A DNA stretch of 47,610 bases from the IMG/VR virus record IMGVR_UViG_3300040960_000305, positions 1 to 47,610 of that record, one strand, 5' to 3'. The DNA is from a virus. The notes under the pieces were generated by a model. It had not been told where the DNA came from. It was given only the letters and a program-made list of their open reading frames with translations, and ran no database searches. Numbering within the stretch: the first letter of the stretch is position 1; each line of letters begins with the position of its first letter. The position numbers and the translations under genes are program-made. Below, piece by piece: positions 32,170 through 47,610 of the stretch.

Positions 32170-33196
32170 TATTGGAGATATATCAGAGCTTACAGGCACT
32201 GCTGAAGTTATAAGAGATCAGCCTTACGGGGCTGAGCTCGACTTTCCTATCCAACAGATGGACGATGTTCGTACGACTGTTGGTAGGATAGCTATTACTT
32301 TTTTAGATGACTCTATTGTTAAATTAACCGAGCACTCAAAGCTCGTTATTACTGAATATATCTACGACCCAGACCCATCTAAAGGCAAGATGGCAATGAA
32401 GTTTGCCAATGGGACTGCTAGATTTATTAGTAGCAAACTAGGCAAAATTGATAAAAAGAATATTAGACTATCTACACCTACGGCTGACATTGCTATTCGT
32501 GGAACCGACTTTACGTGTACTGTGGATGAGCTTGGACGTTCGCTTATTATTCTATTACCTGATGCTAATGGTTTATCTAGTGGTGAAATACTTGTCACAA
32601 CTGCAGCTGGTACTGTTACGCTTAATAAGCCATACGAAGCAACAACCGTAGATGTGTGGGAAAACTCACCTAGCAGTCCTGTTATATTAGACCTAACACT
32701 AGATGTTATAGACAACATGTTAATTGTTGCTCCTCCGGATGAAGAAAACTTATCCACAGAACAATCCACAGCGTACGTAGCAGATAGTGGCGCTTTATTG
32801 GATATAGATTATTTAGAATTTAGTGAGCTAGAACAAGATTACTTAGCCGAAGATGCTTTAGAGTTCACAGAATTAGACATAAACTTTTTAGATGTAAACT
32901 TTTTTGAAGATTTATTAGCAATCATAGAAGAAGTAGATGAACTAGAAACAAACAACTTATCCACAGGCACACTGGTTCAAGGTACAGAAATTGGTCAGGA
33001 TTTAGAAACACAAATAATTACATTACTTCAAGGTGAGCAAATTGCTTTCCAAAGAAAGATAACGCAAAACGCTCAGTTGACCGTAGATGCTTCGCAGGGG
33101 TACACTATTATATTAATACAGGACGGTAAGTACCAACAGATTGTAGTAAACGGTGGAGGCAATTCTACTATAACAATTACCCAGGGGTCAGGATGA
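32042..33196 (+). CDS. FecR-domain periplasmic protein with curlin-like C-terminus
   Basis: A 384-residue protein if begun at ATG 32042, overlapping the curlin gene by 128 bases; ATG 32108 is the other option (362 aa). The longer form gives a better signal peptide (basic RWRPIGLR, then LFLMVVAVLCASF and MTAAQ). Residues ~45-205 are a FecR domain (GDISELTGTAEVIRD, KLTEHSKLVI, FANGTARFIS, TPTADIAIRGTDF). Residues ~225-320 are very acidic and rich in Leu/Phe. The last 30 residues (GYTIILIQDGKYQQIVV, GGGNSTITITQGSG) resemble a curlin repeat (E. coli LTITQHGGGN). It overlaps the cyclase by ATGA. FecR proteins carry signals in the periplasm; here it may read the fibre or pore state. Confidence 0.8.
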   Translation: MAEHTTLHNHLRWRPIGLRLFLMVVAVLCASFKMTAAQQPAASIGDISELTGTAEVIRDQPYGAELDFPIQQMDDVRTTVGRIAITFLDDSIVKLTEHSKLVITEYIYDPDPSKGKMAMKFANGTARFISSKLGKIDKKNIRLSTPTADIAIRGTDFTCTVDELGRSLIILLPDANGLSSGEILVTTAAGTVTLNKPYEATTVDVWENSPSSPVILDLTLDVIDNMLIVAPPDEENLSTEQSTAYVADSGALLDIDYLEFSELEQDYLAEDALEFTELDINFLDVNFFEDLLAIIEEVDELETNNLSTGTLVQGTEIGQDLETQIITLLQGEQIAFQRKITQNAQLTVDASQGYTIILIQDGKYQQIVVNGGGNSTITITQGSG

Positions 33197-34947
33197 AGAA
33201 ATGGATTTCGTTACTAGCAATACCAATACTAGCTATACCACTGCTGTTTAACTGGCAGGCAATAGAAATACTTAAATTAAAAACATTTGATGCTTTCGTA
33301 CAAAAACAAGATCCATCTGGCTGGTTTGTAACCTTAGATATAACAGAAGAAGATGTAGCAGCTGCAGGTGGGTGGCCGTACCCGCGCCAGGACTTGGCAC
33401 GTATTCATTTAGATTTGTTAGAAGCAGGAGCTTTAGGTGTAGGTTGGGTTGTTGCTTTTCCACAAGCAGACAGATTTGGTGGGGACCAAACATTTGCAGA
33501 TGCTTTGGTACAAGGCGCCAGTGTTATTGCTACTTTTGAAGGTGGGGCTTCTTACGCACCAACTACAGGCACAGTTATATTAGGGGACGGTATACCTATA
33601 CAAGCTATAGAAGCTCAAGGTGTTATTGGAAATGTACCCGTGCTAGCAGAGTCAGCTTATCAGGGGCTGGCAGTTGCACGAACTGATGTAGATAATTTAG
33701 TTAGACGTTTACCTTTATTGTTACAGACACCTGATGGTTGGACGCCGTCGTTTGGTATACAAGTAATGAAAATGATTGGTGGCGCAGATACGTACATAAT
33801 TAAAGGGCAGCAAGGGCAGATCGAAGAACTAACTGTACCTAACTACGCACAAATACCTGTAGATAGCATTGGCCGGCGTTGGGTATCTTGGGTTGATACG
33901 CCAAGCACAAGCCTGGAAGAGATGAATGTACGAGATAAGTTTGTGTTTGTGGGGGTGAGTGCAAAAGGTGTTATGCCTCAAATAGCTACGCCAGTTGGAT
34001 TGTTGTACCCACATGAGATACAAGCTGCACTAGCTGAGAGTATGACAATAGATGTACCAGCTATACCAGGCAACGCTTTATTATATGAATTAATTATATT
34101 AGTTACGGTACTAACATTAGCCATAGTTATAATACGTACATTGGGGCTCGTCGGGACTTTAGTAGGGACCGTGGGCCTCGTATCGTTGACCGCGGTTGGT
34201 GGTTGGTACTTAATTGCATCTAATATCCTTATAGATGTCACTTATAGTATATTATCAGCTATACTTATATCTATTCAAGAATTCTATTTACGCTTTAACG
34301 AACAATTTAAACTCAGACAATTGATAAAGAAACAGTTTGAACACTACTTAGATCCGAAACAAGTTGCACGATTGCAAAACAACCCTGACTTATTAAAGCT
34401 AGGTGGAGAAAAGCGTACTTGTACATTTTTGTTTACAGACGTCAGGGGGTTCACGAATCTGTCCGAAAAGTTATCTCCTGAAGAAGTAACAGATATAATG
34501 AATAAAGCTCTTACCGCACAAGTTAAATGCATCCAGGCACATGGTGGTATGGTAGACAAGTTTATAGGCGACGCATGTATGGCCATCTTCAATGCCCCCC
34601 TTGAGATAGATGAACATGAAAAACGTGCCGTCGCCTGTGCCCAGGATATGCGTACGGCTATGCGCATGCTGCAAAAAGAATTGCCCGAACCGATTGCTAT
34701 AGGCATAGGTGTTAATACAGGTGAAGCAGTTATAGGTAATATGGGCTCGGATAATAGGTTTGACTATTCAGCAATAGGAGATGCTGTGAACACGGCTGCA
34801 CGATTAGAGAGTGCAACGAAAGAAGCTGGAGTGGATATATTAATTGGTGAGTCTACTGCTAAAAAGTTAATGCCTTATGATCTGACACTATTAGCTCCTA
34901 TTAAAGTAAAAGGTAAAGCAAAAGCTTTGAAGGTGTATACTATATAG
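33193..34947 (+). CDS. CHASE2-domain class III adenylate cyclase
   Basis: A 584-residue membrane enzyme that should make cAMP from ATP. The order is TM1 (about residues 4-20), a periplasmic CHASE2 sensor domain (~22-290, with GWPYPRQDLARIHLDLLEAG), three TM helices (~295-362), then the cyclase domain (~405-584). Catalytic residues are complete. Metal-binding Asp416 (FLFTDVRGF) and Asp460 (KFIGDAC) are 44 apart as in known enzymes. Lys456 is the base-binding Lys, Ser526 is at the purine-selecting site, and Asn533 and Arg537 (NTAAR) are the transition-state pair. Ser rather than Asp at 526 is seen in class IIIb enzymes. It is translationally coupled to the FecR gene and directly abuts the HNH gene. 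Confidence 0.92.
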   Translation: MKKWISLLAIPILAIPLLFNWQAIEILKLKTFDAFVQKQDPSGWFVTLDITEEDVAAAGGWPYPRQDLARIHLDLLEAGALGVGWVVAFPQADRFGGDQTFADALVQGASVIATFEGGASYAPTTGTVILGDGIPIQAIEAQGVIGNVPVLAESAYQGLAVARTDVDNLVRRLPLLLQTPDGWTPSFGIQVMKMIGGADTYIIKGQQGQIEELTVPNYAQIPVDSIGRRWVSWVDTPSTSLEEMNVRDKFVFVGVSAKGVMPQIATPVGLLYPHEIQAALAESMTIDVPAIPGNALLYELIILVTVLTLAIVIIRTLGLVGTLVGTVGLVSLTAVGGWYLIASNILIDVTYSILSAILISIQEFYLRFNEQFKLRQLIKKQFEHYLDPKQVARLQNNPDLLKLGGEKRTCTFLFTDVRGFTNLSEKLSPEEVTDIMNKALTAQVKCIQAHGGMVDKFIGDACMAIFNAPLEIDEHEKRAVACAQDMRTAMRMLQKELPEPIAIGIGVNTGEAVIGNMGSDNRFDYSAIGDAVNTAARLESATKEAGVDILIGESTAKKLMPYDLTLLAPIKVKGKAKALKVYTI

Positions 34948-44176: not shown

Positions 44177-44587
44177 ATGGCATCAACATATAAATCAGAC
44201 ATGGTTAATGGTAATCAGTCATTCAAACCGTTCCCAAGCGGAGCTGTTGGCGTAAGATACGCTAAGTTTGAAGCTAGTACTGCATTAGTATTAAACGATG
44301 TTATTCAAATTGTTGACGTATTCTCTGGTGAAACTGTGCATGATGTAATCATCAAATGCGACGACCTAGATACAGGTTCAACATTAGTTCTTGACGTAGG
44401 CGACGGCACAACTGCTGACTACTACATCGATGGTTCTACTGTTGGTAGAGCAGGTGGTAGTGATGAGAAAGATGCTAACGTAGCACCAAAAGAATACTCA
44501 GCTGATGATACAATTGACATTCTTGTACAAGCCGCACCAGCAGGTGGTGGTACAGGTACAATTGAGTGTTGGGTATACGTATCATAA
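44177..44587 (+). CDS. Isolated + strand gene, probable virion or surface protein (136 aa)
   Basis: A 136-residue beta-rich protein with its own promoter and ribosome site, placed alone between minus-strand operons. It begins MASTYKSDMVNGNQSFKPFP and has GVRYAKFEAS, LNDVIQIVDVFSGETVHDVI, a DVGDGTTADYYIDG turn, and a Thr/Gly-rich end with GTIECWVYVS. No signal peptide or membrane segment is seen. The composition is that of small capsid decoration or tail proteins of marine phages. The moron-like setting (own promoter, hairpins after) suggests expression independent of the main programme. The product identity is not recognised with certainty. Confidence 0.55.
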   Translation: MASTYKSDMVNGNQSFKPFPSGAVGVRYAKFEASTALVLNDVIQIVDVFSGETVHDVIIKCDDLDTGSTLVLDVGDGTTADYYIDGSTVGRAGGSDEKDANVAPKEYSADDTIDILVQAAPAGGGTGTIECWVYVS

Positions 44588-44589
44588 GA

Positions 44590-44631
44590 AAAAACGCATA
44601 GCCCAAGCCGGGACACCGAATCTTGGGCTAT
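44590..44631 (-). terminator. Intrinsic terminator for leftward transcripts
   Basis: Read on the minus strand, a 10-bp perfect stem ATAGCCCAAG / CTTGGGCTAT (44631-44622 with 44607-44598) is followed by GCG and TTTTTT. It would stop transcription coming from the right just before the convergent + gene. On the + strand no U-run follows, so it is not a standard terminator in that direction. Confidence 0.7.
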
Positions 44632-44635
44632 ACTA

Positions 44636-44652
44636 ATGCCACTCCTTGGCAT
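44636..44652 (-). promoter_or_regulatory. Hairpin with AGGAG loop, possible CsrA site
   Basis: ATGCCA / TGGCAT form a perfect 6-bp stem with a 5-base loop. On the minus strand the loop is AGGAG and the local sequence CAAGGAGTG is near the CsrA consensus (CARGGAUGU with GGA in a loop). No start codon follows at a fitting distance, so it is not an ordinary ribosome site. Confidence 0.4.
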
Positions 44653-44781
44653 GTTTAGGCGGGGAACAATGTGCATTCTGGCCATTGATTGCTTAGCTAA
44701 CCAGCTAGACTATTTGATTACACACGCTAGTCATTCCTATTTTGGTGCAACCCCTTTTCGCAAAACTAAACTTTAAAAATT

Positions 44782-44835
44782 GAGATAACCGTTAGATCTG
44801 TGTAATTACTCACATACGAATCTAACAGCTATCTC
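44782..44835. repeat. Nested three-helix inverted repeat
   Basis: Three collinear pairings are GAGATA/TATCTC (44782-44787 with 44830-44835), GTTAGAT/ATCTAAC (44791-44797 with 44820-44826) and TGTG/CACA (44799-44802 with 44811-44814). They form one long hairpin of 17 bp with two small internal loops and an 8-base apical loop. The sides with mismatches (acc against agc) look like RNA internal loops. Confidence 0.65.
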
Positions 44836-44856
44836 TCGAGGTAATTACTCCCCGAT

Positions 44857-44929
44857 TTTAGTATCAAGTTATATCTTAGACTATGAGGTTTGATATAAAC
44901 CCACGCGCGTAACTTCAAATGATACTAAA
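44857..44929. repeat. Nested two-helix inverted repeat
   Basis: TTTAGTATCA/TGATACTAAA (44857-44866 with 44920-44929) is a perfect 10-bp outer stem. TTATATC/GATATAA (44869-44875 with 44892-44898) is a perfect 7-bp inner stem. The side between 44899 and 44919 holds the self-complementary ACGCGCGT, which may form another contact. Confidence 0.65.
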
Positions 44930-44934
44930 CTTAA

Positions 44935-45036
44935 TTGACTCTCTATCTCCACACACATTTGCTAGTAGGCGGCAAGTTTTAAACTAGTTATAGCGCGCTG
45001 TGCCTCAGTCGGGTGGCTCTTCCTCAAGAGAGTCAA
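44935..45036. repeat. Long-range stem with alternative local hairpins
   Basis: TTGACTCTC (44935-44943) pairs exactly with GAGAGTCAA (45028-45036). Inside are CTAGT/ACTAG (44962-44966 with 44983-44987) and the palindrome AGCGCGCT (44992-44999). A local hairpin CTCTT/AAGAG (45017-45021 with 45026-45030) uses bases of the long stem, so the two forms exclude each other, as in a switch. Confidence 0.55.
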
Positions 45037-45038
45037 AC

Positions 45039-45230
45039 TTAGTGCAGTACTGGACCTTGCATATGCCCTTCTTCAACGAATTGTTCCCATTCGCCTTGGA
45101 AGCCACAAGCAAGTAGTATGCAAAGTTTTACATCTTCTTCGGTTAGATGATGTTTTATAGATGCAGCTTCGATACCTATTTGCATAGCTTCTTCGCCTAC
45201 ATCCATCATGGCTGATTTAAGTCTGCCCAT
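45039..45230 (-). CDS. Small hypothetical protein (63 aa)
   Basis: The start is at ATG 45230, which follows AAGGAG by 5 bases; the longer frame to 45254 has no such site. The 63-residue product has an N-terminal helix (GRLKSAMMDVGEEAMQIGIE) and a second part (LTEEDVKLCILLACGFQGEW). It is soluble and acidic. The start overlaps the previous gene by 14 bases. No family is recognised. Confidence 0.5.
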   Translation of the reverse strand: MGRLKSAMMDVGEEAMQIGIEAASIKHHLTEEDVKLCILLACGFQGEWEQFVEEGHMQGPVLH

Positions 45231-45408
45231 ATTCGCTCCTTGGATAATACTCATTGAACTTCATTTCTGCTTGTTCAGATGTGAGTATCTTTTCATTGTA
45301 CTGTTTACGTTCAAAGTTAACAGCATCTATCCAGCTGCTCATATTAGCTTCGTATGAGTAATCTGGGTTATATTCCCATGGTTTTTCTTTCACAATTGCT
45401 TCCCCCAT
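45217..45408 (-). CDS. Small hypothetical protein (63 aa)
   Basis: A 63-residue polar protein rich in Tyr, Glu and Asn (MGEAIVKEKPWEYNPDYSYE, then WIDAVNFERKQYNEKILTSE). It begins at a TGATG junction with the upstream gene behind GGAG, so translation is coupled. No motif or membrane segment is seen and the function is unknown. Confidence 0.5.
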   Translation of the reverse strand: MGEAIVKEKPWEYNPDYSYEANMSSWIDAVNFERKQYNEKILTSEQAEMKFNEYYPRSEYGQT

Positions 45409-46670: not shown

Positions 46671-46849
46671 TAGATTAACCTCCATAATAAATAGAATATA
46701 CACCCGAGGCCGACCCCGACTCCGAGCAGTAGCAATGAGTAATGAATACTTGTTGCAAGACCGAATAATAAAAACAATATAGCTGTGCCGGTCAACACAG
46801 ACACACCAAACTCTTTGATGTATTGCTTACATTTTGATAACTTCACCAT
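46670..46849 (-). CDS. Small membrane protein with two TM helices (59 aa)
   Basis: The start is set at ATG 46849, after a weak GGA; the longer frame to 46909 lies wholly in the VWA gene. The product has a basic N-terminus (MVKLSKCKQYIKEFG) and two membrane helices (VSVLTGTAILFLLFGLA and SLLLLGVGVGLGCIFYLLW). It overlaps the VWA-like gene by 23 bases. It is the first of three small membrane genes in a row. A membrane-disturbing or exclusion role is possible but not shown. Confidence 0.45.
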   Translation of the reverse strand: MVKLSKCKQYIKEFGVSVLTGTAILFLLFGLATSIHYSLLLLGVGVGLGCIFYLLWRLI

Positions 46850-47610
46850 AAGGTGCTTCCTCCATACTAGTTGACACAAACAACACTGGATAATGTGGTT
46901 TGTCTCCAAAATCTTCTTCAGCTACTTCGAGGTCAGTAAGATACACAAGAGCAGCAACACTAGGATGATGCTCATTGACGTAATCAATTACTGGACTGAT
47001 TCGAGTGCCACCTCTACCTTCGTACGTGACTTTAAGTGGCAATGATTCGCGTGTGTATTCACATGCGTTTTGCACATCATAGTCACATTGTATAAACTGC
47101 ACGCGCTCAGGGTTAAGCTCATGCAATATGTACGAAGTCTCGGAAGTAAACTGTGCTAGCTCATCATCTGTTATAGAGCCAGATGTATCTACAGCAATCG
47201 CTATCTCTTCGAGACAGGGATTATGGAGAGCAGGTAGATACAGACCTCTGGATATGAATCGTCTGTTAGGACGAGCCCATGTAAAATCAGATTTGTTGTT
47301 CGCACGTAAGAAACGAGCCAACACAGCTTTCCAATCGACTTTTGGATCTGTAATTTCTGACACCAGCGACTGCATGTTAGCAGAGAGTTTACCTTGTGCT
47401 TTGGCAGCTTCAGCTGCTTGGTTAACTGCTACTTGCAGTTCCGATTCAATAGCACTAGCAGTACCGCTTGTACCATCGGAATTGGGATGATCCAGCACGC
47501 CACCACAACCACCACCATCTACATACACTGCGTCCCATCCCTGAGGAGGTTCAGGTAGCATATTGTAGATAGCTTCGGTAGTCATGTTTTCGTACTGGTC
47601 ATCCACCAGA
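46827..47610 (-). CDS. VWA-like (DUF2201-type) protein, 5' end missing
   Basis: The frame is open to the window edge, so the N-terminus is missing. The visible ~260 residues include a Gly-rich linker (DGGGCGGVLDHPNSDG), a helical part and a VWA-like domain with an intact metal site motif IAVDTSGSI (D-x-S-x-S), later TYEGRGGTRI and ALVYLTDLEV. DUF2201-type proteins usually have an N-terminal putative metallopeptidase part and work next to a MoxR AAA+ ATPase; such a gene may lie to the right of the window. The phage role is not known; protein remodelling is inferred from the family. Confidence 0.75.
   Translation of the reverse strand, partial: LVDDQYENMTTEAIYNMLPEPPQGWDAVYVDGGGCGGVLDHPNSDGTSGTASAIESELQVAVNQAAEAAKAQGKLSANMQSLVSEITDPKVDWKAVLARFLRANNKSDFTWARPNRRFISRGLYLPALHNPCLEEIAIAVDTSGSITDDELAQFTSETSYILHELNPERVQFIQCDYDVQNACEYTRESLPLKVTYEGRGGTRISPVIDYVNEHHPSVAALVYLTDLEVAEEDFGDKPHYPVLFVSTSMEEAPYGEVIKM

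Follow-up and report, generated by a model that had tools for sequence, protein, structure and literature searches.

A predicted row of exchangeable structured-RNA modules in an intergenic region of phage genomes

The intergenic region and its surroundings

The window analysed here is the whole 47,610-nucleotide stretch of viral DNA in IMG/VR record IMGVR_UViG_3300040960_000305. Within it, a gap of 451 bases (44588-45038) that holds no long open reading frame separates the end of a plus-strand gene at 44587 from the end of a minus-strand gene at 45039. The initial annotation had singled out this gene-free stretch, and the nested inverted repeats that it described there are present as four repeat pairs between 44598 and 45036 (44598-44607/44622-44631, 44782-44797/44820-44835, 44857-44866/44920-44929 and 44935-44944/45027-45036). 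When folded as RNA, the minus strand of the gap reaches -136.4 kcal/mol compared with -113.4 kcal/mol for shuffled sequences (z = -3.5), and none of 100 shuffles folds as well. The plus strand is more stable than 99 of 100 shuffles (z = -3.1).

Pairing that is kept through double changes in homologues is stronger evidence than folding energy. Homologous loci were collected by a search with the plus-strand gene P0001, which gave 29 loci in viral contigs, and by a scan for the small-hairpin pattern of module T, which gave 56 contigs. A wider scan added a few more, and the distinct sequences numbered 52. The evidence base for all modules consists of metagenome contigs. Comparison of these sequences indicates a structured-RNA locus on the minus strand that is laid out as a row of separable modules, with the order M, X3/X2, X1 and T along that strand (Table 1).

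Two other genes of the window may be mentioned. An HNH endonuclease gene (phrog_1314, 46827-47606, minus strand) lies about 2 kb from the array and could bear on local gene conversion. A plus-strand gene at 33193-34947 encodes a CHASE2-domain adenylate/guanylate cyclase that is found with 71-96% identity in nine of 14 related records and shares about 32% identity with the cyclases of Methylophilales phages and of Pelagibacter phage HTVC008M; it is likely a host-signalling gene.

Table 1. Coordinates of genes, modules and linkers at the locus
Feature	Position	Strand	Remarks
Neighbouring gene, 136 aa, no family match	44177..44587	+	Convergent with the array; module T lies just past its stop codon
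Module T, two hairpins	44595..44654	-	Covariation; conservation next to a diverged gene
T hairpin 1	44596-44607 with 44622-44633	-	U-run after the stem in this window
T hairpin 2	44636-44640 with 44648-44652	-	Loop AAGGAGU on the minus strand, like Shine-Dalgarno
Module X1	44658..44762	-	Covariance model R2: 101 bits in the window
Module X2	44774..44857	-	Folds at -34.0 on minus versus -21.4 on plus
Module X3	44856..44930	-	Stem TTTAGTATCA/TGATACTAAA around further helices
AAACTTA linker	44927..44933; second copy about 45035-45041		At both ends of module M
Module M	44934..45037	-	Covariation; model 97.6 bits in the window
Minus-strand gene, 71 aa, no family match	45039..45254	-	Immediately precedes the array on the sense strand

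Structures and covariation of the modules

Module T adjoins the same P0001-like gene, directly after its stop codon, in 52 distinct sequences. An alignment of 28 distinct sequences has standard pairs in 99.6% of pair cells, with double changes in four pairs, one invariant U.G pair on the minus strand and another pair that varies from A-U to G-U. The identity of T is 92-96% where the third codon positions of the neighbouring gene are only 45-64% identical, a near-invariance that fits both strong constraint and recombination.

A 3' RNA ending at an intrinsic terminator had been proposed for this end of the region. That proposal would suit the window, where a clear U-run (GCGUUUUUU) follows the stem, but less so the relatives at large: the first eight bases after the T stem contain at least five U in only 23 of 52, and termination therefore does not appear to be the conserved feature of T. 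A terminator scan at its own thresholds did not list T.

Other roles considered for T were rejected. The GGA and AAGGAG loops had raised the idea of a CsrA sponge or ribosome decoy, but no such motif occurs in X1, and in four relatives (L088, L089, L091 and L093) the loop of T has become AAAGAGU. A short open reading frame starting in T is incompatible with changes in loop length that shift the frame, and a role in packaging near the genome ends is incompatible with the varying position of T in records that are 56-64 kb long; in one of them the neighbouring gene of T is divided between the two ends. As separate observations, the gene at 45254 has a ribosome-binding site (CCAAGGAGCGAATATG) that a flank of the T hairpin (CCAAGGAG) matches, and one related record (G018) has a T-like hairpin (CACACAGGAGGTGTG) with a real start codon downstream.

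Module M has a constant frame around a changing interior. Its outer helix P1 (GACUCUC/GAGAGUC) is followed by a conserved internal loop (UUGAGGAAGAG opposite AGAUA), a helix P1b and an exchangeable interior, in which the loop of a hairpin, P2, forms a pseudoknot with a downstream strand. The interior varies greatly in sequence while keeping this plan, and it is also found, as Z, within its own, separate outer stem. In 27 sequences, 98.0% of pair cells are paired and double changes occur in 37 cells at six pairs, as against zero to two pairs with double changes in slid controls. The P2 arms are 93% Watson-Crick compared with 36% after reshuffling of arms among sequences, and the pseudoknot is 84% compared with 32%, both contrasts being inflated because the P2 and pseudoknot stems were chosen as best matches. 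The 14 distinct arm pairs of P2 are the stronger point.

X1 is preceded by a UUUUGCGAAAA hairpin (about 44760-44770) and consists of an outer GGGG/CCCC helix, a GACUA/UAGUC hairpin whose loop forms a pseudoknot with UUGCAC, and a variable hairpin. Pairing is kept in 98.2% of cells with double changes in 14 cells, which sit, like the other double changes of X1, in the outer helix and the variable hairpin. Eleven further distinct sequences have 100% of cells paired and 15 doubly changed, in an alignment made by fitting to the model and hence biased in its favour. In X2, a long hairpin (44782-44835) is followed by UUUUU on the minus strand and by a smaller hairpin (about 44838-44856), and X3 accompanies X2 in all three homologues seen. 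A further module of 180 bases, R, comes from relatives; its alignment, of only three sequences, shows double changes at 11 pairs.

Covarying helices are thus present in M, T, X1 and R; for T, M and X1 this is the outcome of the very check, covariation in homologues, that the initial annotation had named. Relatives without T do have simple terminators at the same place, as would be expected if the gap were an ordinary convergent terminator region with chance hairpins. That reading is already refuted because the helices covary. Conservation in several phage groups and E-values as low as 1e-27 for covariance-model matches also stand against it, and its probability is close to nil.

The RNA strand

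A G.U pair is informative on one strand only, and such pairs were counted against A.C cells. On the minus strand, T has G.U in 30 pair cells against two A.C cells, and X1 has nine against two. The alignment of X2 and X3 from three homologues folds at -54.3 kcal/mol on the minus strand versus -37.1 on the plus strand, and R at -49.3 versus -39.7 kcal/mol. A same-strand reading frame starts 44 to 268 bases past the X1 core in 17 of 17 loci that have any downstream reading frame, with mechanical overlaps of opposite-strand frames at some X1 loci as well, and modules at other sites share the orientation of the flanking genes. Since G.U pairs, folding energy and same-strand genes agree, the minus strand, on which the region had originally been read, is taken as the RNA strand for T, X1, X2/X3 and R.

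M by itself is neutral, with one G.U cell against two A.C cells, and it is placed on the minus strand by association. Its single-sequence folds are often better on the plus strand, so that M taken alone fits either strand.

Gain, loss and exchange of modules

Beyond T, the next gene is usually on the minus strand among the 52 distinct sequences. The distance to it ranges from 0 to about 490 bases and is typically 0, 110, 200, 300 or 380, stepped lengths that correspond to whole modules being present or absent. Relatives hold zero to four modules in this space, in 16 combinations. Among the closest relatives, L004 has the whole gap, L002 is without the end beside 45039 and L016 has only both ends. 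For more than 1 kb around the site, L002 and the window do not differ except for the clean absence from L002 of 108 bases, which correspond to module M plus one AAACTTA copy. The sister phages L088 and L089, with 98% identical gene DNA, have the same M and X1, and the first carries a module Y where the second carries a module V.

Modules can also be nearly identical next to diverged genes. Identity is 96-100% in three pairs of loci despite neighbouring genes that are only 57-76% identical: Z is 100% identical between L068 and L070 (gene DNA 73%), X1 is 98% identical between L037 and L088 (gene DNA 71%), and M is 96% identical between L016 and L040 (neighbouring protein 57%). On a tree of the neighbouring gene (47 sequences, 16 array types), which is short and may itself recombine, the array requires at least 24 changes and the state of M at least 13. 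A few loci (L033, L045 and L031) have a small open reading frame between T and the next gene. In L033 and L045 this is a minus-strand frame (MTDINKK...) between T and M, so the site takes up small genes too.

The initial annotation had suggested a candidate structured RNA. Its helices do covary in homologues, but they belong to several independent mobile modules, and a single long RNA is rejected because the modules are gained and lost separately. According to the main interpretation, to which we assign a probability of roughly 95% from sequence comparison, the untranslated part of minus-strand phage transcripts contains RNA modules that stand in a row, fold independently, pass between phages as units and are optional and stackable.

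Common short linkers (AAGTTTAG, GAACATG) occur at the module junctions. Together with the shuffling of modules and a T that hardly varies however far its neighbour has diverged, they could point to a DNA-level device in which the palindromes are recombination or linker sites, like PeSL cassettes, and the RNA is incidental. Conservation of G.U on one strand and pseudoknots need single-stranded RNA, however, and the modules hold one orientation relative to genes, which makes a DNA-level device very improbable beside exchanged RNA modules.

Modules in other phages and at other sites

A scan with the Z core found four contigs without T (L099-L102), and a scan with the X1 core found 15 further contigs with covariance model scores of 72 to 103 bits. 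Two records (G014 and G018) belong to the lineage of the window by their DNA polymerase and P0001 homologue. Their modules lie about 6 kb from the P0001 site, within an operon and in sense orientation, and the P0001 site of G014 has a plain terminator, as in other relatives without T. Where G014 has X1 only, G018 has Z, another stem module and X1. Many modules at other sites lie in the 5' untranslated regions of the following genes.

X1, Z and R appear in phages with different replication genes. Against ten other module-carrying records, the polymerase of the window has one marginal match and its helicase three matches at 28-29%. A Rep/UvrD-type helicase and another primase are present in G022, and a DnaB-type primase/helicase with a family A polymerase in G019 and L099. 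R occurs together with X1 in L130.

Several side observations concern these contigs. Stem-enclosed blocks of about 100 bases directly precede X1 in L117, L119 and L122 (GTGTGACTAG../CTAGTCACAC and others) and probably represent a further type of module whose outer stem changes. Long stretches around X1 in L120 (11.9 kb) and L116 (12.5 kb) consist nearly entirely of small reading frames, with one or two of at least 180 aa, and may contain more unannotated RNAs. The DNA polymerase frames of G003 and G008 have one in-frame TAA each in an otherwise near full-length match.

Possible functions

The likeliest function of the modules is that of trans-acting, accessory and gene-independent non-coding RNAs, a tentative proposal that we rate at a little less than an even chance. 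The minus-strand transcript would read through the gene at 45039-45254 into the modules and could stop at T in this window. The modules would outlast the mRNA, either as a 3' RNA or after processing, and each would act alone, most likely on a factor of the host or the phage and in trans. In M, a common factor could recognise the outer frame (P1, internal loop and P1b), with the target determined by the changing interior. By gaining, losing and exchanging modules, phages would be able to adapt to their hosts, as they do with accessory genes.

The lack of a fixed partner gene and the stacking of up to four modules fit accessory RNAs better than the control of one gene. Accessory RNAs are also favoured by the occurrence of modules at 3' ends, between genes and before genes, and by their being optional in near-identical phages, while the combination of a constant frame and a changing interior in M suggests a common handling factor with variable targets. 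Three points count against accessory RNAs: no phage isolate has the modules, the strand signal of M is neutral, and many modules are in 5' untranslated regions, a position that would suit cis control too.

If the modules instead act in cis on their mRNA, they might set cut sites for host RNases and protect mRNA ends from exonucleases, the different modules being interchangeable versions with the same job. Every copy lies in an untranslated gap between genes of its own strand, the stems of X2 and R are long, and several modules end in a stem followed by U-runs, each of which is compatible with such elements. The elaborate conserved loops, the pseudoknots and the exchange between unrelated phages exceed what stability hairpins need, and near-identical phages do without the modules. 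We consider cis-acting elements unlikely overall, although they are the most serious competitor to accessory RNAs.

An antitermination role like that of put is distinctly less probable still. In that case the host RNA polymerase, bound by modules of the nascent RNA, would run through T and other terminators and go on to transcribe minus-strand genes further downstream, for example the replication operon below 43905. A terminator-like hairpin does come right after the modules here, followed by further minus-strand genes, the modules are gene-independent and are found in small-gene operons or next to replication genes, and the putRNA of phage HK022, a phage RNA of about 70 nt, is a precedent (PMC9378689). 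This putRNA, however, consists of two stem-loops and the folds here are others (their sequence relation was compared through Rfam only), up to four unlike modules occur in one place, and many relatives that have T carry none.

A more far-reaching version of the accessory-RNA proposal is speculative and rather unlikely, less so than antitermination. The modules might constitute a shared pool of mobile non-coding RNA effectors in combinatorial arrays, in which interchangeable pseudoknotted domains, presented on a constant frame like that of M, would neutralise or redirect factors of the host, possibly its defence systems. If true, this pool would parallel, at the RNA level, the islands of anti-defence genes.

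Most of the structured non-coding RNAs known from phages are either large single molecules or elements that belong to particular genes. The small RNA folds predicted here are mobile units that are optional, stackable and exchanged across different replication machinery. If they act in trans, they would represent an exchangeable RNA effector layer in phages that is invisible to gene annotation. At least four new Rfam families (T, M, X1 and Z/R) are possible.

Comparison with known systems

The initial annotation had recognised no known RNA class, and database searches agree. Neither the whole window nor L099-L102 has a match at curated scores in Rfam 15, including the GOLLD and ROOL families, and permissive limits returned only chance-level matches far below gathering scores. 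Array DNA has no match in 50,697 phage records, nucleotide and protein searches of phage isolates found no match for the array, other modules or the neighbouring gene, and the M pattern gave five hits in 84,980 prokaryote species, all due to chance and without a paired stem. ARAGORN found no tRNA in the 47.6 kb window, a record that may be incomplete, and a scan for sigma-70-type promoter-like sites found none inside the array. Known self-cleaving ribozymes are made less likely by the lack of Rfam matches. A riboswitch would be a conserved aptamer tied to the genes of one pathway; conserved folds do occur here, but the genes beside them change from site to site and are found both before and after the modules.

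GOLLD and ROOL are large, pseudoknotted non-coding RNAs that occur in phages and prophages and whose function is unknown; GOLLD is often longer than 800 nt, and tRNA islands are often close to either RNA (PMC12286853). The modules share with them the character of phage non-coding RNAs with pseudoknots, but they are separate units of about 60-190 nt, with no tRNA in the window and no Rfam match. The HK022 putRNA, of about 70 nt and two stem-loops, binds RNA polymerase and suppresses termination in cis whatever the gene (PMC9378689). The modules may be likened to it as a structured RNA of early phage transcripts with gene-independent action (both being features of putRNA; PMC9378689), and T is of similar size. 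There is one copy of putRNA per operon, whereas here many folds are stacked and exchanged.

PeSL cassettes of T4-type phages, as far as they are described where cited in PMC4503421, combine an intergenic early promoter with a stem-loop and are a proposed aid to gene shuffling. On that description they resemble the modules as short intergenic cassettes with a stem-loop that are tied to modular shuffling, and they differ in that here the RNA folds themselves are exchanged and the array has no sigma-70-type promoter-like site. The manA, wcaG and PhotoRC-II RNAs are structured domains in untranslated regions of marine phages that were found by comparison (PMC2864571). They are tied to particular genes, in contrast to the modules, which have no fixed gene or Rfam match. 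Structured RNA domains in bacterial 3' untranslated regions are highly unusual (PMC2864571). Since none of GOLLD/ROOL, manA/wcaG/PhotoRC-II or PeSL fits, the comparison points to the modules as a new kind of structured RNA relative to Rfam and the open-access literature.
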